Shown here in pieces: positions 1 through 9,857 of a DNA stretch of 64,000 nucleotides (the stretch's first letter is position 1; every line of letters starts with the position of its first letter). The position numbers were made by a program, and so were the translations under genes. The notes beneath the pieces are model-generated. The model was not told the origin of the DNA. It did not search any database and saw nothing but the letters and a program-made list of their open reading frames with translations. Origin of the DNA: Microvirga lotononidis (GTDB taxonomy: Bacteria; Pseudomonadota; Alphaproteobacteria; Rhizobiales; Beijerinckiaceae); contig NZ_CP141048.1 of the NCBI RefSeq assembly GCF_034627025.1, positions 2,616,001 to 2,680,000 on the forward strand. Reading direction: 5' to 3'.

Positions 1-400
1 TGTCCGAAGAGCGCGGCTCAATGAAGATGGGGTTTGAGTCCTGCGAATGCAAGGTTCTCGGGATCAGCGGAACGGGGTTCGATCGCCGCCTGGACTCCCT
101 CGCAACCTTCGGCCAGGGCGAGATCTCGCAGCGCGCCAACTTGAAAGTTCGCGCCAGCTCCGCGCCTGCCGGGACACCATAGACGGAGGCTGCGCAGGAG
201 AACGCCTCGGAGAACGGCTCGATGGCGCACCAGCTCTTCTCCGCCATGTGCAGCGGCCACGTCCATAGGCCGTCCTCGCGCCGCTGGCCGACGCTGTCAC
301 GGTCGATGAAATAGCCCGTTCGCTTGTGCTCCAGACCGCTCTCGACCACGAGCCATTCCTCGTTCTCGAAAATCGGTCTCTCGTCCGTCATAGCGGTCAT
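1..400 (-). CDS. Hypothetical protein, 3' part missing at window edge
   Basis: An open minus-strand frame starts at ATG 400 and runs without a stop for 133 codons off the left edge. The start is supported by AAAGGAT about six bases upstream. The visible protein is soluble-looking and acidic at first (MTAMTDERPIFENEEW), has several Trp and Cys, and becomes Arg/Pro-rich. I recognise no family. A possible promoter (TTGACA at 507-512, TATGTT at 485-490, 16-base spacer) overlaps a perfect LexA box at 473-487, so SOS control is likely. A second in-frame ATG lies at 391. The gene diverges from the coiled-coil/Rad50/Mre11 operon and may belong to the same damage response. Confidence 0.6.
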   Translation of the reverse strand, partial: MTAMTDERPIFENEEWLVVESGLEHKRTGYFIDRDSVGQRREDGLWTWPLHMAEKSWCAIEPFSEAFSCAASVYGVPAGAELARTFKLARCEISPWPKVARESRRRSNPVPLIPRTLHSQDSNPIFIEPRSSD

Positions 401-472
401 CGCAGGATCCTTTGCGGCGGTGAGGCGCGGCTGCCCTAATGGCGTCACATCCACGACGCATACACAGGATGC

Positions 473-487
473 GAACAAACCAAGAAC
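473..487. promoter_or_regulatory. LexA (SOS) box 1
   Basis: GAAC at 473-476 and GAAC at 484-487 are separated by exactly 7 bases, the alphaproteobacterial LexA operator. It lies between divergent genes (ATG 400 minus, ATG 691 plus) and overlaps the proposed minus-strand -10 (485-490; -35 at 507-512). Whether the rightward operon is also repressed cannot be read directly. The rest of 401-690 holds no gene I can support. Confidence 0.8.
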
Positions 488-690
488 ATACTCCCGATGT
501 CCGCCGTGTCAAGCAAAGTCGGCGCTGTGGGACTGTAATCTCGGAGTAACCGATACTATGTGGAGGGTCAGATGGCAGGATTGAAGAGATCGCTCCGGAT
601 CCCGCTCAAAAAGTGGCAAAGTCGTTGCGGCGAAATATCGCTGGCGATAACTGAAGCTCGACCATTCCAACGCAGTGGATTCGCCACCCC

Positions 691-987
691 ATGACCAACC
701 CGACACGCTTCGAGACGGACCAGCTCCGGCGCCTGGAGGACATGCGCAAGACCTTCGATAAACTGCGGGCGGAGCGGATACGCGCGGAAGGCGAGGTCGA
801 GCGTCTCACGCGCGAACTGGAAGAGGCGCGGGCTCTCGCCCTGTCGGAATTCGGCACCGACGACGAAGGACAGCTTCAGGGACTGATCGAGGATGCGCAG
901 GCGCGCAATGCCAAGCTCGCAGACGAATTCGCCGCCGCCCTGCGCGATGTCGAAGCGCGCCTCAAGCAGCTCGGAGACGAGCGTTGA
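691..987 (+). CDS. Small coiled-coil protein coupled to Rad50-like ATPase
   Basis: This 98-residue protein is almost wholly heptad-like and charged: repeated Arg/Glu/Leu from residue 10 to 55 and again from 65 to 95, with no membrane segment and no Cys. Its TGA (985-987) overlaps the TTG start of the ATPase (984), so the two are translationally coupled. No family is recognised. Since the downstream ATPase carries only about 50 residues of coil on its N-terminal lobe, I infer this protein may pair with the ATPase coiled coil as the missing strand. An alternative is a simple regulator or chaperone of the complex. The LexA box at 473-487 lies upstream. Confidence 0.75.
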   Translation: MTNPTRFETDQLRRLEDMRKTFDKLRAERIRAEGEVERLTRELEEARALALSEFGTDDEGQLQGLIEDAQARNAKLADEFAAALRDVEARLKQLGDER

Positions 988-2819
988 TCGGTCCTGATAT
1001 CGATCATGACGTCGCACGGGCGCAAGCGTCCCTGGCGCGACTGGAAGGGCGACGCGATGCCCTGCGCAGCCGCCGCCAGGAGCTGACGCGCGAGATCGAA
1101 CTCGCCAAGGGCCGCCTTGCCGTCAAGGATGAGGTGGAGGCCTTCATCGAGGCCGTGCACGGCTCTGCAAGCCGCCGCAGCCTGTCCGCGTTCGAGACGC
1201 TGCTCACCGCTCTGGTTCAGGAGGTTCTGCCGGGCGAAAAACCCGCGGCCCTCGACCTCTCGACGGAGCGCGGCCTCGCTTCGCTCGACATCTGCGTGCG
1301 TCGCGCCGACGGCACGCTCGAGGACGTCCTGGAGGACAATGGCGGCGCACTGACGAACGTGATCGGAATGGCGCTGCGGCTGATCGCCGTGGTCAAGGCG
1401 GATGTCGCCCGCTTTCTTGCTCTCGACGAAGCGGATTGCTGGATTGCGCCGGACCGCGTCTCGTCCTTCTACAAGGTGCTGGAGGATGGTGCCGCGCGCC
1501 TCGGCGTGCAATGTCTGGCCGTCTCGCATCACGACCTGTCGCAGTTCTCGGGCTCGTTCCACATCGCCCGGATTGTCGGCGATCCCGTCTCCGGCGTCGA
1601 TGTACAATCCACCGACACCAGCGCTGCATGGAGCGAATCTCAGCCGGGTCTGCGCTTCATCCGGCTCGTGAACGTGCAAGCCTACGAGGATGCGACGCTC
1701 CACTTGAGCCCCGGCGTGAATGCGCTGATCGGGCCGAACAACCGCGGCAAGTCCACTTTCATTCGGGCGCTGCGCGCAGTGTTCTACGGCGAAGCCAGGG
1801 ACAGTCTCGTGCGCGCGGGGGCGAAGGCCGCGACCGTCGAGATCGGTGTGGCGGGGCGTCGGACATTGCGCTTCACGCGCCAGCCGCGCCGTTCGCCCAT
1901 CAACGTCTGGTCCTTGCACGAAGCGGACGGTTCCGTCGTCGAGGAGCAGGGCATGCGCTACGAGACGGGCGGCCGCAATGTGGCGGATTGGGTCGCCGAC
2001 CTCATCCGCATCCGCAAGGTAGAGGATCTCGACGTTCACATCGCGCATCAGAAGTTCCCCGTCTTCCTTCTCGGAGAGACGCCGTCCCGCCGATCCGCCG
2101 TTCTCTCGATCGGCCAGGAGGCGGGCTACATCCGCGACATGCTCGTCATTCATCGCGAACGCTGCCGACGCGACAACGATCTCGTGCGCAACGGCGAGCG
2201 GGAGCTGATCGCACTCGGCGAAACGCTCGACGGGATGAATGACCTCGATGCGCTCAAGGACAAGCTGTCGGCGATCCGCAGCCAGGCCGGCGAGCTCAAG
2301 GAGGTCTCGGGGCGGCTGCACGGGCTGCGACAGCGCGCAACGCAACTCACCGAGCTCCACCGGCGCTTGGAGAAAGCGCGGGCACGCACCGATGTCACGG
2401 CAACGCTGCCTGAAGCCGAGCGGCTGATGGACATCACGCGCCGGGTGGAGCGCTCGCGTGAGCACCGGCGGATCGCGGAGCGGGTCATCGGTCTCGGCCG
2501 CGATCTTGCCCGGAGCAGGGCCCGGGTTGCGGCATTGAGAAGCCTCCCGGAGGCTGTTCCAAGTCTTGAAAACACGGCCTCGGCACAAAACATGCTGAGG
2601 CACATGGCGGATCTTCGGAATGGTGCTCGGATTGCGCAAAGCCGCATCGCGCAGGTCGACGAGGGGCTCGCATCCTTGCAGGCGGAGATGGCGGAGCTCA
2701 TGGAAGAGACTGGCGGGCTCTGCCCCACCTGCGGCTCGCCCGTGAAGCCCGAGAACCTGCTGGACCATCACGCCCACGCCACCCACTCTACCACGCCGTC
2801 GGAGAGGCTGACCGCATGA
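984..2819 (+). CDS. SbcC/Rad50-like ATPase with circularly permuted lobes
   Basis: This 611-residue ABC/SMC-type ATPase probably works with the adjacent Mre11-like nuclease on DNA ends. Order seen: short coiled coil (about 10-55), signature-like GGALTNVIGMALRL (120-133), Walker B FLALDEAD (144-151), H-loop HH (182-183), then Walker A GPNNRGKS (250-257), a Q-loop-like stretch near 355, long coiled coil (about 385-575) and a zinc-hook CPTC (580-583) near the C-terminus. In canonical SbcC/Rad50 the Walker A lobe comes first and the hook lies in the middle, so this protein looks cut at the hook with its halves swapped. Start TTG 984 overlaps the upstream stop; its own stop overlaps the nuclease start at 2816. 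Size is well below SbcC (about 1000 aa), consistent with one coil strand being absent. Confidence 0.85.
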   Translation: MIGPDIDHDVARAQASLARLEGRRDALRSRRQELTREIELAKGRLAVKDEVEAFIEAVHGSASRRSLSAFETLLTALVQEVLPGEKPAALDLSTERGLASLDICVRRADGTLEDVLEDNGGALTNVIGMALRLIAVVKADVARFLALDEADCWIAPDRVSSFYKVLEDGAARLGVQCLAVSHHDLSQFSGSFHIARIVGDPVSGVDVQSTDTSAAWSESQPGLRFIRLVNVQAYEDATLHLSPGVNALIGPNNRGKSTFIRALRAVFYGEARDSLVRAGAKAATVEIGVAGRRTLRFTRQPRRSPINVWSLHEADGSVVEEQGMRYETGGRNVADWVADLIRIRKVEDLDVHIAHQKFPVFLLGETPSRRSAVLSIGQEAGYIRDMLVIHRERCRRDNDLVRNGERELIALGETLDGMNDLDALKDKLSAIRSQAGELKEVSGRLHGLRQRATQLTELHRRLEKARARTDVTATLPEAERLMDITRRVERSREHRRIAERVIGLGRDLARSRARVAALRSLPEAVPSLENTASAQNMLRHMADLRNGARIAQSRIAQVDEGLASLQAEMAELMEETGGLCPTCGSPVKPENLLDHHAHATHSTTPSERLTA

Positions 2820-3817
2820 TCCTGTCCGGAGATCGTCTTCCCCCCGTCGCCTGCAACGGCATCCTGGTGATCGGGGATCCTCATGTGGGCTCGAGACGCC
2901 CTGGCCGACGCAAGGATGTCGTGTGGCCCCAGGCCGTGCTCGGCAAGCTGGAGCATTGCGTGTCCATCGCCAACGAGCGGGGGCTCGCCGTCGTGATCCT
3001 GGGTGATCTGTTCGACCGGCCGGTCGAAACCGACATGGCTCTCAAGAACCAGCTCATCCGTGTCCTGAAGGGCTTCAGGCAGCGGCCCATCGTCAATGTG
3101 GGCAATCACGACATCCAGCACATGACGCTGACGGACAGCGACTCGCTCGCCTTGCTGGGCCTGTGCGACGTGGTCGACGTGGTGGCCACATCGGCGCCGG
3201 TGACGGAATTCCAGATCGATGCGCGCCGGATCGGCATCGGCATGACCCCTTACGGCCAGACGATCCCGACCGATGCGCGGGGCTCCTTCACGGGCGTCGA
3301 TCTGCACGCATGGTTCACGCATCACGACATCGCCTTCGACGGCGGGTATCCGGGCGCGGTGCCGCCTTTCGCGGTCGAAGGCTGCGACGTCCTCATCAAC
3401 GGGCACATCCACAAGACGCAGAAGTCCATTTTGGCCGGACGGACCCGCTGGATGAATCCCGGCAACATCACGCGGCAATCCGTCGATCTCGTCGATCACG
3501 TGCCGCGCGCCTGGATCCTGGACGGAAGCGGTGCCTTGGAGCCGCATGCCCTGCCTTATGAGAGCAACGTATTCGATCTGACCGGGCGCGTCGTCGATGC
3601 GGCGGATGGAGCCGTCGTGGCGCGGGAGGTGGAAAGCGCCTTCGTCACGTTGCTGCAGGCGGAATCCGCCACGGAACTGAAGCGGAGCGGCGACGGCTCG
3701 ATCGTCCGTGACGAGATCGAAGCGAAGTTCAACGCCGACAACACGTCGGATGCCGTGCGCGCCATCGTGCGCTCGCTCCTCGGCGAGGCGGTGGAGCGCC
3801 ACGCGGCGCAGTCTTAG
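2816..3817 (+). CDS. Mre11/SbcD-type metallophosphoesterase nuclease
   Basis: This 333-residue protein carries the calcineurin-like nuclease motifs in order: GDPHVG (D21, H23), GDLFDRP (D64), VGNHD (N97, H98), THHD (H169/H170) and NGHIH (H197, H199). These bind two Mn/Mg ions in Mre11, SbcD and phage T4 gp47. The C-terminal third (after about 240) is variable and may be the ATPase-binding part. The start overlaps the ATPase stop (ATGA, 2816-2819), which supports an obligate Mre11-Rad50-like pair. The stop TAG (3815-3817) is the first triplet of a palindromic repeat. It is closer in size to gp47-like proteins than to E. coli SbcD (about 400 aa). Confidence 0.88.
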   Translation: MILSGDRLPPVACNGILVIGDPHVGSRRPGRRKDVVWPQAVLGKLEHCVSIANERGLAVVILGDLFDRPVETDMALKNQLIRVLKGFRQRPIVNVGNHDIQHMTLTDSDSLALLGLCDVVDVVATSAPVTEFQIDARRIGIGMTPYGQTIPTDARGSFTGVDLHAWFTHHDIAFDGGYPGAVPPFAVEGCDVLINGHIHKTQKSILAGRTRWMNPGNITRQSVDLVDHVPRAWILDGSGALEPHALPYESNVFDLTGRVVDAADGAVVAREVESAFVTLLQAESATELKRSGDGSIVRDEIEAKFNADNTSDAVRAIVRSLLGEAVERHAAQS

Positions 3818-3856
3818 AGCATCGGACGTAGAAGCGAACTCACGTTCGATGCTTTA
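3815..3856. repeat. Palindromic repeat (TAGAGCATCG family) between convergent genes
   Basis: A 42-base element with ends TAGAGCATCG and CGATGCTTTA forms a hairpin. Its left triplet is the TAG stop of the nuclease gene and its right end supplies the TAA stop (3854-3856) of the convergent gene. It may act as a bidirectional terminator. Confidence 0.75.
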
Positions 3857-4504
3857 GAAGGCGAATGGATCGCTATAGGCCAGGCGGCGCCGGCGTACCT
3901 GCGTCTCCGGGAGGATCGGGCGGCTGATGTCGACAGCGACCAGCCCCTCGCAGGCGAGCGCGAGAACGGCCGCGACGCCGTCCTGCGTGTTCATGACGGC
4001 GCTGGCGCAATCCACCAGCCGCATGGTTCCGACCTCATCGAGCTGATGCAGGACCCGCACCCGGTCGCCTGCCGTCACGGGCGTGCGCTTGCAGGCCAGG
4101 ATCAGGCGCATGGTCGTGAAACGCGGCTCGGCCCGGATGCTCGCGGCGGTTTCGATCGCGAATGAGCGCCCATCCGACGAGGCGATGCCGTGGATAGCGG
4201 CAGCCCGCAGCGGATGCTTCAGCAAGTCTTCGTCGGTCACCACGTCGACCAGATAGGCAGTGCCGTCCCTGACGATCTCGAAATCCGCCAGGTGCTCGAG
4301 AGTCTCGTCGCCGACGGCGAACTCCGCCGGATCGGCCGGAGCGCGCAGGGATTCCACCTCGGCGTCGAGTTCGCAGAGCGCCAGGTAATCGGCGATCAGG
4401 GCGTTGCGCGTGAGCGGCGTGGACGGGCGCTTCTGGGCCCGGCGGGTTCCCGAGCGGCGGGCAGGGCGCCTGTCCGAAAGGTCGAGGAGCGCTTGCGCGG
4501 ACAT
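3854..4504 (-). CDS. Hypothetical protein with TnsA-like segment, SOS-controlled
   Basis: The protein has 216 residues from ATG 4504, chosen because GGAGG sits five bases before it; an upstream in-frame ATG at 4516 lacks a site. After a basic N-terminus (about 10-30), the segment E70-H71-L-A-D74-F...G-T-A-Y-L-V-D87-V resembles the PDFxV...YLVEVK core of TnsA/VRR-type nucleases, but the usual Lys is replaced, so catalysis is doubtful. The C-terminal part (130-216) is unrecognised. The upstream promoter (TTGACC 4591-4596, TATATG 4568-4573, 17-base spacer) overlaps a perfect LexA box. I am confident it is a gene and unsure of its function. Confidence 0.65.
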   Translation of the reverse strand: MSAQALLDLSDRRPARRSGTRRAQKRPSTPLTRNALIADYLALCELDAEVESLRAPADPAEFAVGDETLEHLADFEIVRDGTAYLVDVVTDEDLLKHPLRAAAIHGIASSDGRSFAIETAASIRAEPRFTTMRLILACKRTPVTAGDRVRVLHQLDEVGTMRLVDCASAVMNTQDGVAAVLALACEGLVAVDISRPILPETQVRRRRLAYSDPFAF

Positions 4505-4564
4505 CGGGGCCTCCATCTTGGCTTTTTGTAAGGATGGGCTGTCCTTTGCCCATGACGGTCACGA

Positions 4565-4579
4565 GAACATATATAGAAC
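4565..4579. promoter_or_regulatory. LexA (SOS) box 2
   Basis: GAAC (4565-4568), seven bases ATATATA, GAAC (4576-4579). It overlaps the -10 of the predicted minus-strand promoter of the 3854-4504 gene and lies 61 bases from its start, so repression of that gene is the natural reading. Confidence 0.85.
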
Positions 4580-4759
4580 ATAAGTCGATGGGTCAAACTT
4601 TGCGTGGCCGTCGGAGGATAGAGTTGCCCAGCGTTGCGATACGCTGCCATCCGGCAGGATTGGGACAAAATGGCACATGGTATAAAGTATTGTGATATAA
4701 AGCTTTATTGGCCGATTCAGATAGTTTGAAAGTGGACCGGGCGGCTCAAATTTGCTATA

Positions 4760-4774
4760 GAACAAATACCGAAC
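4760..4774. promoter_or_regulatory. LexA (SOS) box 3
   Basis: GAAC (4760-4763), seven bases AAATACC, GAAC (4771-4774), 74 bases before the ATG of the plus-strand gene at 4848. The 4580-4760 interval between boxes 2 and 3 is AT-rich for this genome and contains several TATAAA-like strings but no gene I can support. Confidence 0.85.
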
Positions 4775-4847
4775 GCGCTGGCCGGGACAAGGCTGCGACA
4801 AGAGCGCGTCACCGATTTGCGGGCTCCTGAGAACGTTAGGATCGAGG

Positions 4848-5513
4848 ATGAATACGACGGACAAGAAGATTTCAGAGGTGCTTGCGAAATTCGGCGAGCC
4901 GATGGCCGGGAACGTCTGGCGCGTCCAGGGAACGGCGGTCATCTATCACAAGACCCTGGAGCGCATCGCCGCCCAGGCGAAAGTCGTCTTCGACGAGCCC
5001 AAGATCATTCGCGCCGAGCGCGACGAGGCCGTCATCCAGGTGACCGGCCGCATGGGCGACCGGGTGGAGTGGTCCATCGGCGAGGCGCTGATCGGCGTGA
5101 ACTATCGGGTCTCCGGCAAGCAGGCCGCCTATGTCTACGCCATGGCGGAGAAGCGCGCGAAAGACCGCGTGATCCTCAAGCTCATCGAGCTGCACGGCTA
5201 TGTCTATTCCGAGGAGGAGGCCGACGAGTTCAAGCAGGGCCGTCCGGGCTATGCCGACCCGCATGTTGAGCTCGAGAAGACCGAGCCGCAGAAGGGAAAG
5301 GTCGAAGCGGCCGCTGCCGATGCCAAGGTCGAGGACGATCTGAAGGCGAAGATCAAGAAGGCCAAGACCATCAATGCGGTCACGGACCTGATGCTTCACG
5401 CCGACACCCAGAAGACGCTCGCCGATCTGCCGGAAGGCATCCGCGACGAGATCCGCGACTTCGCCAAGGCGCGCCTCGTCGAACTCGGCTGGCCGACCAA
5501 AAAGGCAGCCTAA
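4848..5513 (+). CDS. Prophage-type hypothetical protein (possible recombination accessory)
   Basis: The 221-residue protein has two parts. Residues 1-130 include NVWRVQGTAVIYHKTLERIA and the core YAMAEKRAKDRVILKL followed by HGYVYSEEEADEF; I associate this pattern with uncharacterised phage and plasmid proteins, possibly related to single-strand annealing/Rad52-type proteins, but that link is only recollection. After a Lys/Ala-rich linker (about 145-170), a small helical C-terminal domain ends in ARLVELGW. The LexA box at 4760-4774 and the context of nuclease and helicase genes support a DNA-damage role. A hairpin terminator follows at 5528-5567, so it is mainly monocistronic. Confidence 0.7.
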   Translation: MNTTDKKISEVLAKFGEPMAGNVWRVQGTAVIYHKTLERIAAQAKVVFDEPKIIRAERDEAVIQVTGRMGDRVEWSIGEALIGVNYRVSGKQAAYVYAMAEKRAKDRVILKLIELHGYVYSEEEADEFKQGRPGYADPHVELEKTEPQKGKVEAAAADAKVEDDLKAKIKKAKTINAVTDLMLHADTQKTLADLPEGIRDEIRDFAKARLVELGWPTKKAA

Positions 5514-5527
5514 CTTTCGCTGCGATC

Positions 5528-5567
5528 ATGGACGAGATGATCTGACAATCGTCTCGTCCATTTTTCT
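5528..5567 (+). terminator. Rho-independent terminator
   Basis: Stem ATGGACGAGA (5528-5537) pairs perfectly with TCTCGTCCAT (5552-5561) and is followed by TTTTTC. It separates the 4848 gene from the RecD2-like gene, arguing against a simple shared operon. Confidence 0.8.
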
Positions 5568-5607
5568 TCCCGCGGTAGCGTTCCGGCGCTCCTGGTCTTT
5601 TTGATCG

Positions 5608-7797
5608 ATGCCGAAATCATCCGCCCTTCCTGCCCTTCGGCAGGACGCCCTATCCCTCTCCGAGCATCTCGTCGGCTCCATCGAGCGGGTGACGTTCCAC
5701 AACGACGAGACTGGTTTCTGCGTGCTGCGCGTCAAGGCACGCGGCCACCGCAGGCCCGTTGCCGTCGTCGGTCATGCGCCGTCGGTCGCCATCGGCGAAG
5801 TGATCGAGGCGAGCGGCGAGTGGCTGCATGATCGCAATCACGGGGTTCAGTTCCGCGCCGCCGAGCTGAAGACCTCGGCGCCGACGACCGCGGAAGACCT
5901 GCAGCGGTTTCTCGGATCGGGCCTGCTGAAGGGCGTCGGCCCTGCCGTCGCGCAACGGCTCATCGCCTCCTTCGGATCGCGCATTCTCGATGTCATCGAG
6001 AAGAAGCCGCACGAGCTGACGCGCGTGCACGGCATCGGCATGGCGAAGGCACTCGGCATCGGCGAAGCCTGGGCCGAGCACCGCGCCTTGAAGGACATCG
6101 CCGCCTTCCTCAATGCCCACGGCATCGGCGGCTTCCTGCTCACGCGCATCTATCGCGCCTATGGCGTCGGGGCCATCGACATCATTTCGGCCAATCCCTA
6201 CCGGCTTGCGCTCGACATTCCCGGTTTCGAATTCGCGCTGGCCGACCACGTGGCCATGCAGCTTGCCGTCGAGCCGACGGCTGAGATCCGGCTCCAGGCC
6301 GGTCTCGCCAACGTCCTGTCCGAAGCCGTGAAGGACGGGCATTCCGGCTTGCCGGCCGATGAACTCCTGCAGCAGGCGAGCGCGCTCCTCGATGTCCGGA
6401 CGAGTGAACTCTCTCCCGTGCTCGACGCCCAATGTTCCGCGGGTCAGCTTGTGGCCGATGAGCTCGACGGCCGTCGCTGCATCTTTCTCAAGAGCCTCTA
6501 CGGCGCCGAGATCTTCATCGCGCAGCGCCTTAAGGAGATCGCCCAGGGCTTCCATCCCTGGCGCGGTCTCGACACCGCACAGGTGATCGCCGAGGCGGAG
6601 AAGGTCGCTGGCGTCTCCTACTCGGCAAGCCAGCGCGACGCGCTCATCGCCTCCTGCCAGGCGAAAGTGCTTGTCGTCACGGGCGGTCCCGGCGTCGGCA
6701 AGACCACGCTCATTCGCAGCCTCACGCATCTCTGCGCGAAGCACGAATTGCAGGTGGCCCTCTGCGCGCCCACGGGGCGTGCGGCGAAGCGGCTCGCCGA
6801 GAGCACGGGGTTTCCGGCCAAGACCGTGCACAGGCTTCTCGAAGCGTCCGAGGGCGGGTTCCGGCGCAACGCCAAAGCGCCGCTCGATTGCAATCTCCTC
6901 GTGGTGGACGAGGCTTCCATGCTCGATATCCGGCTCATGGCGGCTCTCTTGCGTGCCTTGCCCAACGAGGCTTGCCTGCTCCTCGTCGGCGACGTGGACC
7001 AGCTTCCTTCCATCGGGCCCGGACAGATCCTGTCCGACATCATCGCGTCCGGTGGCATTCCAGTGGTGCATCTTCGGGAGGTGTTCCGGCAGGAGCGGGA
7101 AAGCCGCATCATCACCGTGGCGCACGCCATCAATCGCGGGCTCGTGCCCGATCTCTCGCACCGGCCGGATTCGGATCTCTATTTCATCGAGGCCGATACG
7201 CCGGGCGATGCCATGGCCAAGATGACGATCCTTATGCGCGATCGCATCCCGCGAAAGTTCGGCCTCGATCCCGTGCGCGATGTTCAGGTGTTATGCCCCA
7301 TGAACCGAGGGCGGCTCGGCACGCATATGCTGAACGGGGAATTGCAGCAGATCTTCAATCCGCCTGGGCCCGACAGTCTGCACCGCGCCGGATGGGTCTA
7401 TGGTCCCGGCGACAAGGTCATGCAGGTCCGGAACGATTACGAGCGCGACGTCTATAACGGCGAGGTCGGCATCGTGCGTGAGGTGAACCGGGAATACGGC
7501 GAACTCACGGTCGCGTTCGACGACAGGCTCGTCGTCTATACATTGAAGGAACTCGACGAGCTTGCGCTCGCTTATGCGGTGACGATTCACAAGGCTCAAG
7601 GATCGGAATATCCGGCGGTGATCGTTCCCGTGGCGCTGCAGCAGGCCTCCATGCTGCGACGCAAGCTGCTCTATACGGGTGTAACGCGCGCCAGCCGCCT
7701 CGTCGTCCTGGTTGGAAGCCGAGCCGCGCTCGCTCAAGCCGTTGCCCAGGAAGAGGAACCTCGCCTCTCCCGATTGCGGAACTGGCTCGAGGCCTGA
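5608..7797 (+). CDS. recD2: RecD2-type ATP-dependent DNA helicase
   Basis: This 729-residue superfamily 1B 5'-3' helicase matches RecD2 (RecD of bacteria lacking RecBC). The N-terminal OB-like segment begins LVGSIERVTFHN and contains helix-hairpin-helix elements (about 110-210; GVGPAVAQRL and VHGIGMAKAL). Walker A GGPGVGKT lies near 360, motif II VVDEASM near 432, motif III GDVDQLPSIGPG near 460, and the UvrD-C motif TIHKAQGSEYP near 657. The start ATG 5608 has only a weak ribosome site. RecD2 proteins act in repair and fork processing; here the gene ends the damage island. No LexA box immediately precedes it. Confidence 0.92.
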   Translation: MPKSSALPALRQDALSLSEHLVGSIERVTFHNDETGFCVLRVKARGHRRPVAVVGHAPSVAIGEVIEASGEWLHDRNHGVQFRAAELKTSAPTTAEDLQRFLGSGLLKGVGPAVAQRLIASFGSRILDVIEKKPHELTRVHGIGMAKALGIGEAWAEHRALKDIAAFLNAHGIGGFLLTRIYRAYGVGAIDIISANPYRLALDIPGFEFALADHVAMQLAVEPTAEIRLQAGLANVLSEAVKDGHSGLPADELLQQASALLDVRTSELSPVLDAQCSAGQLVADELDGRRCIFLKSLYGAEIFIAQRLKEIAQGFHPWRGLDTAQVIAEAEKVAGVSYSASQRDALIASCQAKVLVVTGGPGVGKTTLIRSLTHLCAKHELQVALCAPTGRAAKRLAESTGFPAKTVHRLLEASEGGFRRNAKAPLDCNLLVVDEASMLDIRLMAALLRALPNEACLLLVGDVDQLPSIGPGQILSDIIASGGIPVVHLREVFRQERESRIITVAHAINRGLVPDLSHRPDSDLYFIEADTPGDAMAKMTILMRDRIPRKFGLDPVRDVQVLCPMNRGRLGTHMLNGELQQIFNPPGPDSLHRAGWVYGPGDKVMQVRNDYERDVYNGEVGIVREVNREYGELTVAFDDRLVVYTLKELDELALAYAVTIHKAQGSEYPAVIVPVALQQASMLRRKLLYTGVTRASRLVVLVGSRAALAQAVAQEEEPRLSRLRNWLEA

Positions 7798-7861
7798 TCC
7801 CTTTCCCTTGGAGGGGCTGCCATCTATAGTGGTTGTTCCAGTGTCTTGTGGGATCGCGGAG

Positions 7862-8029
7862 ATGAATGTCGATACCGGACAGATCAACCAGCAGGAACGG
7901 CGGGTCCGCACAGGCCTTCTCGCCGGGACGATCCTGTGCCTGGTTGCCTCCGGCGGGATCCTCTGGTGGCGCTATGGAGGCGCCGTGTTCAATGATCTCG
8001 TGCTGACCACTCTCGCCTGGTGCTTCTGA
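7862..8029 (+). CDS. Small single-pass membrane protein
   Basis: The predicted 55-residue peptide has a polar N-terminus (MNVDTGQINQQERRVRTG), one hydrophobic helix (about 19-37, LLAGTILCLVASGGILWW) and a short C-terminal tail. GGAG precedes the ATG, although the spacing is short. Its 3' end overlaps the convergent glycosyltransferase gene by 41 bases. No function is recognised. The composition and charge asymmetry favour a real membrane miniprotein, but it could be spurious. Confidence 0.5.
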   Translation: MNVDTGQINQQERRVRTGLLAGTILCLVASGGILWWRYGGAVFNDLVLTTLAWCF

Positions 8030-9857
8030 GAACCAATCCGGCGCGCGACGTCCTGGCGTGGCCATGGCTCGTCTTGTTCCATCGGAACGTCGCCGTCGCC
8101 AATTCCCACAATCCCCGCCATGCCGCGATGCTCACGAGACCGTAATAGAACGGCAGCAGCGGCAGCCACGGCCAAAGCCGCCAGAGCCTGCGGCTGTGCA
8201 AGGCGACCAAGGCCGGGATCATGATCGCCGCCGTACCGGAGAGGAAAAGCGTCAGGCTGTAGAACCAGGCGACGGTGTCCCAGCGCGAGGCATAAAGCCT
8301 GGTCGTTCCGGAAAACCACTCTGCCAGGAACAGCACGGAGAAAAGCGGGTAGAACAAGGCGCTGAGCACGATACCCCAGGTCAGGACGAGAGCGCCGTAA
8401 CAGCGCCAGACGCCCAATTGCCGGAGCAGGACCCACGGCCTGCGCGAATGGGTCGTGGCGGTCTGGACGAAACCTTTCATCCACCGGGTCCGTTGCCGCA
8501 TCCAGGAGCCCAGGGTGACCGGCGCCTCCTCCAGCGTCGATGAGGGAAGATCCCTGACCTCATAGCCCAGCCGTGCTAGGCGAAGGCCGAGATCCGCATC
8601 CTCTGTCACGTTCCAGGCATCCCACCCATGGACTGCCTTGAGAACCGAGGTGCGGAAATGGTTCGAGGTGCCGCCCAGGGGAATGGGGCTCCCGATCTCG
8701 GCCAGACCCGGGTTGAACACATCGAACAACGCCGCGTATTCGATGGTGAAAAGGCGCGTGAGCCAGGAATCGTCCGTGTTGTCGATGGTGAGTCGCGCCT
8801 GGAGACAGGCGACCTGCGGCGGCAGGCGGGCGAACCGGGCAACGGCGAGGCGCAGCTGACCGGGATCCGGGACGTCCTCGGCATCGTAGATGACCGTGAA
8901 GCGTCCCCGCGCCAGGGGCAGGGCAACATTGAGAGCTCGTGGTTTGGTGCGCGGCTCCCCTTTGGGCGCGACGACGATCTCCATATTGCCCGGCAGGTCG
9001 ACGGCCCGAAGGGCATCGAGCGTTTCCCTATCGTCGGATTCGAGAACGAGCTTGATGTCGAGCTTGGCCGCCGGATAATCGAGCCGCGACAGGGCCTGGA
9101 TGAGCGTGGCGGCCACCCGCTTCTCCCGATAGAGGGCCGCGATGATCGTGTAGACCGGCAGCGCGGCGTCCTCGGTACGGGGAGCCTCGTCGTTCGGTTC
9201 GAGGGAGTTTTTGAGCACCGATGCCGCGAGCCTCAGGACGATCATGCCCAGAAAGAGCGGCCCCAGAGCAGCCCCGATGATCGCCAGCGTCGGCCCTGGA
9301 GCGTGGCCAATGCCGAACGCGGTGACGGTCAGGACGACGAACAGGACGGTGATTTGCCCGTAGCCGAGGTCGGTCGCCAGCTCGGGCGCCCACCGGGCCA
9401 GATCCGAGGCGGCCCGATCGGCGATCCACGGGCCCTGCCTGCGAAAGACCGCTTCTCTCAGGCGCGACGGAGATGTGATGGCAAGCGTACGGCTGCGGAG
9501 CCTCGTGCCAAGGAGACGGGCGAGCGCGGCACCGCGAGGGGCCGTTACGAACCCTGCCTGAAGTCCGGCCAAAGGGGCGATGCCCGCCAGAATGCTGTCC
9601 GGGTAAAGGGCGGCCTGCGACAGGGGAGGGGCGGACAGGAACGGTAGCCGGAGCTCGGCCGCGAGGGCGCGATAGAAGTCGTCCTCGCCTACGAGGTTGT
9701 GTTTCAGCAGAAACTCATCGGCCGAAATCCCGGCGAAACGGGCGAGGATTGCGGCTTGGCGCAGCGTTTCCGGGGCGTGGCCATGATGTGCCAGGAACCC
9801 GATCTCGACCGGCAGTGCTGTTGACTGTGGGCTCGGCTCCGCTAGACCCTGCCTCAT
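7989..9857 (-). CDS. Family 2 membrane glycosyltransferase with GspE-N-like domain
   Basis: In this 622-residue processive-type GT2 protein, residues about 25-95 resemble the type II secretion GspE N-terminal domain (ISADEFLLKHNLVGEDDFY). Hydrophobic helices lie at about 165-210, then the catalytic region: YREKRV, DDRET, the acidic YDAEDVPDPG, EDADLGLRL and QRTRW (the QxxRW motif). Three or more C-terminal helices follow. It should make or export a beta-linked polysaccharide or cyclic glucan at the inner membrane; the sugar cannot be read. The GspE-N/GT2 combination recurs in Rhizobiales and its role is unclear. No pathway genes adjoin. The 5' end overlaps the divergent region of the next gene. 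Confidence 0.88.
   Translation of the reverse strand: MRQGLAEPSPQSTALPVEIGFLAHHGHAPETLRQAAILARFAGISADEFLLKHNLVGEDDFYRALAAELRLPFLSAPPLSQAALYPDSILAGIAPLAGLQAGFVTAPRGAALARLLGTRLRSRTLAITSPSRLREAVFRRQGPWIADRAASDLARWAPELATDLGYGQITVLFVVLTVTAFGIGHAPGPTLAIIGAALGPLFLGMIVLRLAASVLKNSLEPNDEAPRTEDAALPVYTIIAALYREKRVAATLIQALSRLDYPAAKLDIKLVLESDDRETLDALRAVDLPGNMEIVVAPKGEPRTKPRALNVALPLARGRFTVIYDAEDVPDPGQLRLAVARFARLPPQVACLQARLTIDNTDDSWLTRLFTIEYAALFDVFNPGLAEIGSPIPLGGTSNHFRTSVLKAVHGWDAWNVTEDADLGLRLARLGYEVRDLPSSTLEEAPVTLGSWMRQRTRWMKGFVQTATTHSRRPWVLLRQLGVWRCYGALVLTWGIVLSALFYPLFSVLFLAEWFSGTTRLYASRWDTVAWFYSLTLFLSGTAAIMIPALVALHSRRLWRLWPWLPLLPFYYGLVSIAAWRGLWELATATFRWNKTSHGHARTSRAGLVLRSTRREWSARDH

Follow-up and report, generated by a model that had tools for sequence, protein, structure and literature searches.

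A Rad50-Type ATPase with Reversed Lobe Order in a Three-Gene SbcCD-Like Operon of Microvirga lotononidis, Probably Fused from Split Rad50 Genes

Introduction

How does a Rad50-type ATPase come to carry its two lobes in reverse order, and what does such a protein work with? The question is raised by a locus of Microvirga lotononidis (Alphaproteobacteria; Rhizobiales; Beijerinckiaceae; NCBI RefSeq assembly GCF_034627025.1). The window analysed here is a stretch of 64,000 nucleotides from contig NZ_CP141048.1, positions 2,616,001 to 2,680,000, and coordinates below are window positions unless marked otherwise. Three genes on the forward strand form the locus. The first encodes a small coil-like protein of 98 amino acids (691..987), the second the ATPase of 611 amino acids, which has a TTG start (984..2819), and the third an Mre11/SbcD-like phosphoesterase of 333 amino acids with an ATG start (2816..3817). 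The stop of the first gene overlaps the start of the second through TTGA, and the ATPase and nuclease frames share an ATGA overlap.

The original prediction described a permuted ATPase coupled to a nuclease. Both reading frames and their overlap are as it described, and the pairing stands. It overlooked the gene at 691..987; the operon starts one gene before the ATPase, at 691. The three genes likely encode an SbcCD-type complex with a rearranged Rad50, fused from a gene for a split C-lobe and a gene for the N-lobe and hook.

Lobe Order of the ATPase

The ATPase carries, from the N- to the C-terminus, a signature-like motif, Walker B, H-loop, Walker A, Q-loop and a CPTC hook. Apart from the Q-loop, which the original prediction did not list, these motifs lie where it placed them. 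The C-lobe-like N-terminal half (residues 1-214; 984..1625) has a short coil-like stretch, the signature-like motif (residues 118-133, DNGGALTN...R, with GG120-121, N125 and R132; 1335..1382), Walker B (residues 144-149, FLALDE; 1413..1430) and the H-loop histidine (residue 182; 1527..1529). An N-lobe-like segment follows (approximately residues 223-385; 1650..2138), which matches Pfam AAA_23 at 226-362 and residues 5-221 of Methanocaldococcus jannaschii Rad50. It includes Walker A (residues 250-257, GPNNRGKS; 1731..1754) and the Q-loop glutamine (residue 356; 2049..2051). A coil-like arm (approximately residues 386-576; 2139..2711) leads to the zinc-hook-like motif (residues 577-583, GGLCPTC; 2712..2732), which matches the solved hooks 6zff and 1l8d. 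The chain ends 28 residues past the CPTC (580-583).

This order is identical in 69 of 69 aligned homologues, which share 22-93% identity with the window protein and come from Alpha-, Beta- and Gammaproteobacteria. In the same alignment D148, E149, D151, H182, G255, K256, C580 and C583 are invariant, and position 356 is glutamine in 67 rows. The signature-like motif was foreseen correctly as far as its glycines go (G120 in 69 of 69 rows, G121 in 67). The residue before them is lysine in 34 rows, asparagine in 23, arginine in five, glutamine in five and leucine in two, and never the serine of LSGGQ.

Profile comparisons point to the identity of each part. In a whole-protein profile of 640 positions, 226-440 match residues 5-222 of M. 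jannaschii Rad50 (E 1.8e-11), 145-213 match residues 380-446 of a 453-residue SMC head construct (E 2.3e-7), and 560-631 match the Rad50 zinc hook (E 3.9e-6). The two halves were also compared separately, each as a profile of 19 rows. The best match of the N-terminal half is 3qkr_B, a C-lobe chain of Pyrococcus furiosus Rad50 (33-209 to 4-177, E 1.8e-5), and the second best is 1ii8_B, also a P. furiosus Rad50 C-lobe (E 6.7e-5); within 3qku, a single-chain construct, its alignment falls in the C-terminal part (189-357). This half also matches phrog_15167. The C-terminal half matches residues 5-221 of Rad50 5f3w (E 1e-9) and the hook 6zff (E 2.7e-7). Since the N-terminal half matches the C-lobe and the C-terminal half matches the N-lobe and hook, the halves are swapped relative to Rad50, as had been proposed. 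Judged by these profiles, the N-lobe features of Rad50 (Walker A, Q-loop) and its C-lobe features (Walker B, H-loop) are both present. So is the CxxC of the Rad50/SbcC zinc hook, for which metal binding is predicted.

Only about 70 residues stand ahead of the C-lobe-like part, against 224 between Q-loop and hook, and across the 69 rows the chain ends 6-31 residues beyond the hook. Homologues have between 184 and 295 residues from Q-loop to hook, in clusters near 184-188, 214-224, 250-268 and 284-295. These clusters lie about 35-40 residues apart, and LPxxPxL breaks can be seen by eye, as if the arm were modular. Self-comparison of the arm showed helical periodicity, together with a broad maximum at 37-44 residues; given a mean z of at most 1.6, tandem repeats were rated only suggestive.

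Could the reversed order be an artefact of a frameshift, a misassembly or chance motifs? One metagenomic protein, P0113, resembles by eye a frameshifted join of the small protein and the ATPase, and it was set aside as a natural fusion of the two because its linking stretch looks out of frame. Against an artefact, all 69 rows and 42 of the 48 genus genomes keep the order or the open frame. With the gene whole throughout the genus, the chance of an artefact is negligible.

Split Relatives in Phages and Plasmids

The two halves of the ATPase also occur as separate proteins. PHROG matches place them in different phage families, 16465 for the N-lobe and 15167 for the C-lobe. An example is Bacillus phage vB_BboS-125, in which an N-lobe-hook gene (gp32) is followed by an AP2-domain gene, a small protein of 78 amino acids (gp34) and a C-lobe gene (gp35). 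Scanning viral sequences with gp35 yielded 27 loci, which include vB_BboS-125 itself and many near-copies. In all 27, an N-lobe open reading frame (ORF), whose last 45 residues include CPLC or CPTC, is followed by a small protein of 77-79 amino acids and then by the C-lobe. An SbcD-like ORF, 24-31% identical to the window or Microcystis nuclease, lies in the examined flank of 24 of the 27.

Gene order differs elsewhere. Microcystis phage Mvi-JY20 has N-lobe, nuclease, small protein and C-lobe, all separate. An Alkaliphilus plasmid likewise has a separate gene for each of the four, the nuclease being placed differently in the order. By eye, plasmids of Alkaliphilus, Paenibacillus, Geobacillus and Aneurinibacillus all have the N-lobe, then the small protein, then the C-lobe; in the last three (L137, L140, L142) the nuclease appears fused to the N-lobe-hook chain, with the small protein and C-lobe separate.

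A profile of five phage C-lobes (9-204) aligns with 13-206 of the permuted N-terminal half (probability 99.4, E 3.9e-21). The alignment runs nearly end to end, from the first coil of the permuted protein, and the split N-lobe proteins terminate at the hook, as the permuted protein does. For these two reasons the permuted chain corresponds to a C-lobe protein joined to an N-lobe-hook protein.

Several side observations were made on the split loci. In 7 of the 27, the N-lobe gene is separated from the small gene by an AP2-domain gene resembling a homing insertion; loci noted with it are L082 (at 5398-5970), L110, L111, L112, L126, L128, L129 and L135. In Cetobacterium (L139, 2945-4040) the N-lobe is present as two overlapping ORFs, the second of which has CPTC just a few residues before its end; the C-lobe and nuclease genes there are separated by an IscB gene. 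On a Jeotgalibacillus plasmid (L141, 3831-4995) the C-lobe gene adjoins a dihydrofolate-reductase-like gene, and no N-lobe or small protein was recognised in the stretch examined. Nor was an N-lobe or small gene recognised in the stretch examined around the C-lobe gene of phage Tunturi_5. In phage Magritte, no N-lobe gene was found in two stretches read; genes 4 and 247, annotated as ASCE ATPase, were rejected as N-lobe candidates because inspection by eye suggests a clamp loader and a clamp. A viral scan with the Microcystis C-lobe led nowhere, and tblastn of the N-lobe protein gp32 in phages found its own phage only.

The Third Protein

The 98-residue coil protein is a conserved third component of the system. 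By eye, it has two helix-like stretches flanking an (F/L)GTDD turn. BLAST finds it in the window, in 50 of 50 homologous loci (L009-L058) and in 3 of 10 plasmid loci, and eight annotated plasmid records have an ORF at the same position. The part shared by 31 close homologues never varies at L15, L25, I30, R31, R38, L39, A46, A50, G55, D57, D58 or L91. A broad set of 17 keeps A50 in every member and G55 in nearly all.

The protein is 97-134 amino acids long in most loci, 176 in Alteromonas and 213 in Aeromonas. Compared by ranges, these lengths mismatch a Q-loop-to-hook stretch of 184-295 residues, so the small protein is unlikely to be the complete return strand of the arm in every member, and that reading was rejected.

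Evidence that the small proteins of the split and permuted systems are related comes from searches in both directions, in which many rows are near-copies. A profile of 19 split-system small proteins was run against 5236 ORFs from 61 permuted loci. Small proteins took the first 31 ranks, at E values between 0.00036 and 0.37, and made up 35 of the 37 rows at E <=1, outranking the long ATPase coils; one of them, in L064, was called small by position alone, and the search did not reach those of the remaining 26 loci. The 98-residue window protein was matched at E 0.011. In the reverse search, against 1446 ORFs from 37 loci, small proteins ranked 1-14 (best E 1.3e-5), and an unrelated ORF came 15th (0.0077). 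The small proteins of the two systems are likely homologous.

The Nuclease Partner

The phosphoesterase was recognised by Pfam PF00149 and phrog_100, and Mre11 chains match it with a best E of 0.0014. Residues D21, H23, D64, N97, H98, H169, H197 and H199 occupy what we take to be the Mre11/SbcD metal-ligand positions. None of the eight varies among 33 of 33 close homologues. Toward the C-terminus F276, L280, I301 and L321 are conserved in the broad set, and they may belong to a capping domain or a Rad50-binding helix-loop-helix of Mre11/SbcD type. The ligand motifs come in part from PMC3175470. The SbcD model TIGR00619 was not among the families found for the nuclease at E <=1.

In a broad set of 15 nucleases, the eight positions are kept in ten, all from outside the Gammaproteobacteria. 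A nuclease with all metal motifs, as originally claimed, is borne out for the window protein, and its close homologues share them. The ligands are missing in five gammaproteobacterial partners, from Pseudomonas (two), Vibrio, Aeromonas and Alteromonas (L061, L062, L063, L067, L068), which are all the gammaproteobacterial partners examined. Searches of these five against NCBIfam gave no family or stray unrelated matches at E 0.02 or worse, and Pfam gave no family for the three tested. As a group they nevertheless align with the nuclease over 284 columns (probability 97.5, E 8e-12). They look like degenerate phosphoesterases that may retain the partner surface.

This pattern bears on another interpretation, that the complex is a structural or tethering machine of SMC type in which the phosphoesterase serves mainly as a clamp subunit and catalysis is secondary. 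Five of five gamma partners that lost the ligands yet align with the nuclease as a group would agree with it. The invariant ligands in the 33 close homologues and in the ten non-gamma rows of the broad set speak against it, and it is somewhat unlikely.

Distribution

The family is present in 42 of the 48 genus genomes, this genome included, with matches free of internal stops. It was found in 17 of 248 genomes sampled from the bacterial family and in at least 2 of 398 sampled from the phylum. The last figure is a lower bound, as only three candidates per genome were scored, and it excludes nine of eleven matches, which are confined to a stretch of some 75 positions at Walker A. The plasmid records gave 24 matches. 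Of these, 21 extend over parts of both halves, and the other three (H22-H24) cover the N-lobe side only and were not counted as permuted. Plasmid hosts include Bosea, Methylorubrum, Rhizobium, Variovorax, Acidiphilium, Pseudomonas, Vibrio, Aeromonas and Alteromonas. Locus L059, with the Walker A region only, was removed ahead of all counts. A tblastn search of phages with the window protein gave no match, and viral scans with alignment profiles A1 and A4 found no relatives.

The permuted locus may perhaps be the sole Mre11-Rad50-type complex of this genome. The SbcC model gives nothing better than E 3e-4 here, against about 1e-40 in 2 of 20 relatives; this absence is soft, the model cut-off being reached in only 1 of 14 control genomes. 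A 1155-residue frame (L001) was rejected as a canonical SbcC: its N-terminus is SMC-like by eye, and the SbcC model gives only E 4.8e-4. TIGR00619 has a single match elsewhere in the genome (E 3.4e-5). A genome search with PF00149 listed 13 other places and missed the window nuclease (contig positions 2618816-2619817), so negative results of genome searches here are soft in general.

Distribution also helps to judge whether the locus is a Lamassu-type defence system, with a small accessory protein, an SMC-like ATPase and an effector nuclease directed against phage or plasmid DNA. In its favour are a best PADLOC match of the ATPase to LmuB (E 1e-11, over residues 237-589) and the three-gene make-up of the operon. 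Against this, the LmuB stretches, for the best 25 of 49 families, all fall within the N-lobe-to-hook half, and neither the small protein nor the nuclease matches a PADLOC family at E <=0.01. Neither of the two thus shows up as an LmuA or, as far as that library models it, an LmuC partner. The Methylobacteriaceae locus keeps its neighbours and is common in the genus, unlike a patchy defence island, and phages themselves carry the split relatives. A Lamassu-type role is therefore quite unlikely.

Origin of the Reversed Order

The relationship between split and permuted forms was examined in a C-lobe tree of 35 rows (16 permuted, 16 split and 3 canonical as outgroup) and 211 columns, built by a quick method. 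This tree has several very long branches and a weak canonical outgroup. The 16 permuted rows form one clade with a Shimodaira-Hasegawa-like approximate likelihood ratio test (SH-aLRT) value of 100, so that a single origin of the fusion is well supported. The best tree places this clade among the split forms, with weak support.

One rival is a true circular permutation, in which a single-chain Rad50 was duplicated in tandem or otherwise rearranged, its head ends were joined and new ends appeared at the hook. No split ancestor is needed, and the phage forms would have arisen later or separately. The geometry fits, since the new C-terminus would lie at the hook, and the approximately unbiased (AU) test does not reject the split forms as a single clade (p 0.21). 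On the other side, the permuted ends fall about where the separate phage proteins end, a free-standing small protein precedes the C-lobe in both forms, and the best tree nests the permuted clade among the split forms, if weakly. A permutation without a split ancestor is unlikely.

Fusion of two split-Rad50 genes is the best origin, because the ends of the permuted chain approximate the ends of separate proteins and the permuted forms are one clade. A split-first origin is accordingly preferred but not proven. The permuted order in the original prediction thus stands, while the route it suggested is less likely: the chain seems not to have been cut at the hook but to be a stable fusion of two genes that are separate in phages and Firmicutes plasmids. 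The thought of two joined genes, raised there as a frameshift that would refute the prediction, was in this sense half right.

The argument for a rearranged SbcCD-type complex draws on sequence throughout: motif order, lobe identities, the hook, the conserved operon, the split relatives and the single permuted clade. Several points weigh against it. The signature serine is absent in 69 of 69 rows, and 5 of 15 partners have no metal ligands, so nuclease action is not general. Direct hhalign comparison of split and permuted small proteins is weak (probabilities 18 and 15), and the AU result above leaves the split forms free to be a clade of their own.

Neighbouring Genes

The operon of small protein, ATPase and nuclease is present in Methylobacteriaceae and kin and on megaplasmids. 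Downstream genes at 3854-4516 (reverse strand), 4848-5513 and 5608-7797 (both forward) keep their place near it. Of 61 loci, several of them cut by contig ends, each of two neighbours without a Pfam family is found in 44, and a RecD2 helicase in 27. The gene at 4848 resembles by eye a single-strand annealing protein. Neighbours with roles in DNA work are RecD2 in the window and RecJ, RecQ, UvrD-type helicases or topoisomerase on plasmids. An Rfam scan of window positions 1-9000 gave no matches.

Proposed Mechanism

A single chain, C-lobe first and N-lobe second, could form a complete ATP-binding cassette (ABC) head through a short head-to-head linker and end at the zinc hook. The return strand, which in Rad50 runs from hook to C-lobe, would be discontinuous, made up of the N-terminal stretch of the ATPase and probably the separate small protein. 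A head without the canonical covalent order is plausible because solved Rad50 head structures list the lobes as separate chains (1ii8_A and 1ii8_B).

Two such heads would close with ATP sandwiched between them, and their hooks may pair and so join two arms. The nuclease would bind the heads or the arm base and trim or cut DNA ends, and the small protein may pack on, or complete, the arm or neck. Homology, carriage by phages and megaplasmids, and the neighbouring genes suggest a role at DNA ends. The function would be ATP-driven tethering of DNA ends, with processing where the ligands remain.

Significance

Soil bacteria and bacterial megaplasmids carry a reversed-order Rad50 that seems to descend from a phage-like three-gene version. 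This suggests that the usual single-chain layout is not obligatory.

A broader proposal, which we put slightly below even, is that these proteins represent an undescribed lineage with an interrupted arm. Phages and Firmicutes plasmids would have a three-chain Rad50, Proteobacteria would have re-fused two of the chains in reverse, and on gammaproteobacterial megaplasmids the partner would have lost its nuclease activity, leaving an ATP-driven DNA tether or clamp. If the proposal is true, nature can dispense with the covalent head-hook-head loop, taken as basic to the SMC/Rad50 superfamily.

Rad50 and SMC proteins are modelled on the assumption that the opening of the heads travels along an unbroken arm from N-lobe to C-lobe by way of the hook or hinge. 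Machines found in nature whose lobes are separate, or joined directly at the head, offer tests of which connection serves ATP gating, DNA entry and hook signalling. The family also provides a graded series: three chains, reversed fusion, nuclease-fused and nuclease-lost.

Comparison with Known Systems

No account of a reversed or three-gene Rad50 was found among the full-text matches listed, which include the available parts of PMC3175470 and PMC12153180; subscription papers lay mostly outside the search. Within that literature, the earlier statement that no such layout has been described still holds.

A related described case is that of the Mre11/Rad50 fusion proteins in PMC3175470, Mimivirus R555 and others. 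According to the part of that paper available, one NTPase segment was not observed in fusions from a Bacillus phage and Anaerostipes, and a split C-lobe would fit this gap. These fusions likewise show rearranged gene boundaries in mobile elements. They differ in that the nuclease is fused to Rad50, and a reversed lobe order is not described in that part.

Two other families resemble the N-lobe-to-hook half. The Archaea-specific SMC-related protein (ASRP, NF045487) gives the best NCBIfam score, 67.9 bits against a cut-off of 300, and 64.8 of these come from that half. Its model follows the canonical order, starting from Walker A. The Lamassu protein LmuB is alike in the N-lobe-to-hook segment and, among its best 25 of 49 families, has no stretch in the C-lobe half.

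Rad50/SbcC itself shares the N-lobe, C-lobe, Q-loop, Walker A and B, H-loop, coil, zinc hook and an Mre11-type partner. The listed Rad50 models score 9.6-40.5 bits against cut-offs of 454-1087 (the best 40.5, with a cut-off of 700). The permuted protein differs in its reversed lobe order, a chain that ends at the hook, a discontinuous return coil, the missing signature serine and a separate small protein. Split Rad50 is alike in the lobes, with similar chain ends, a small protein before the C-lobe and an SbcD-like nuclease. It differs in that its lobes are separate proteins, encoded in the order N-lobe, small protein, C-lobe.

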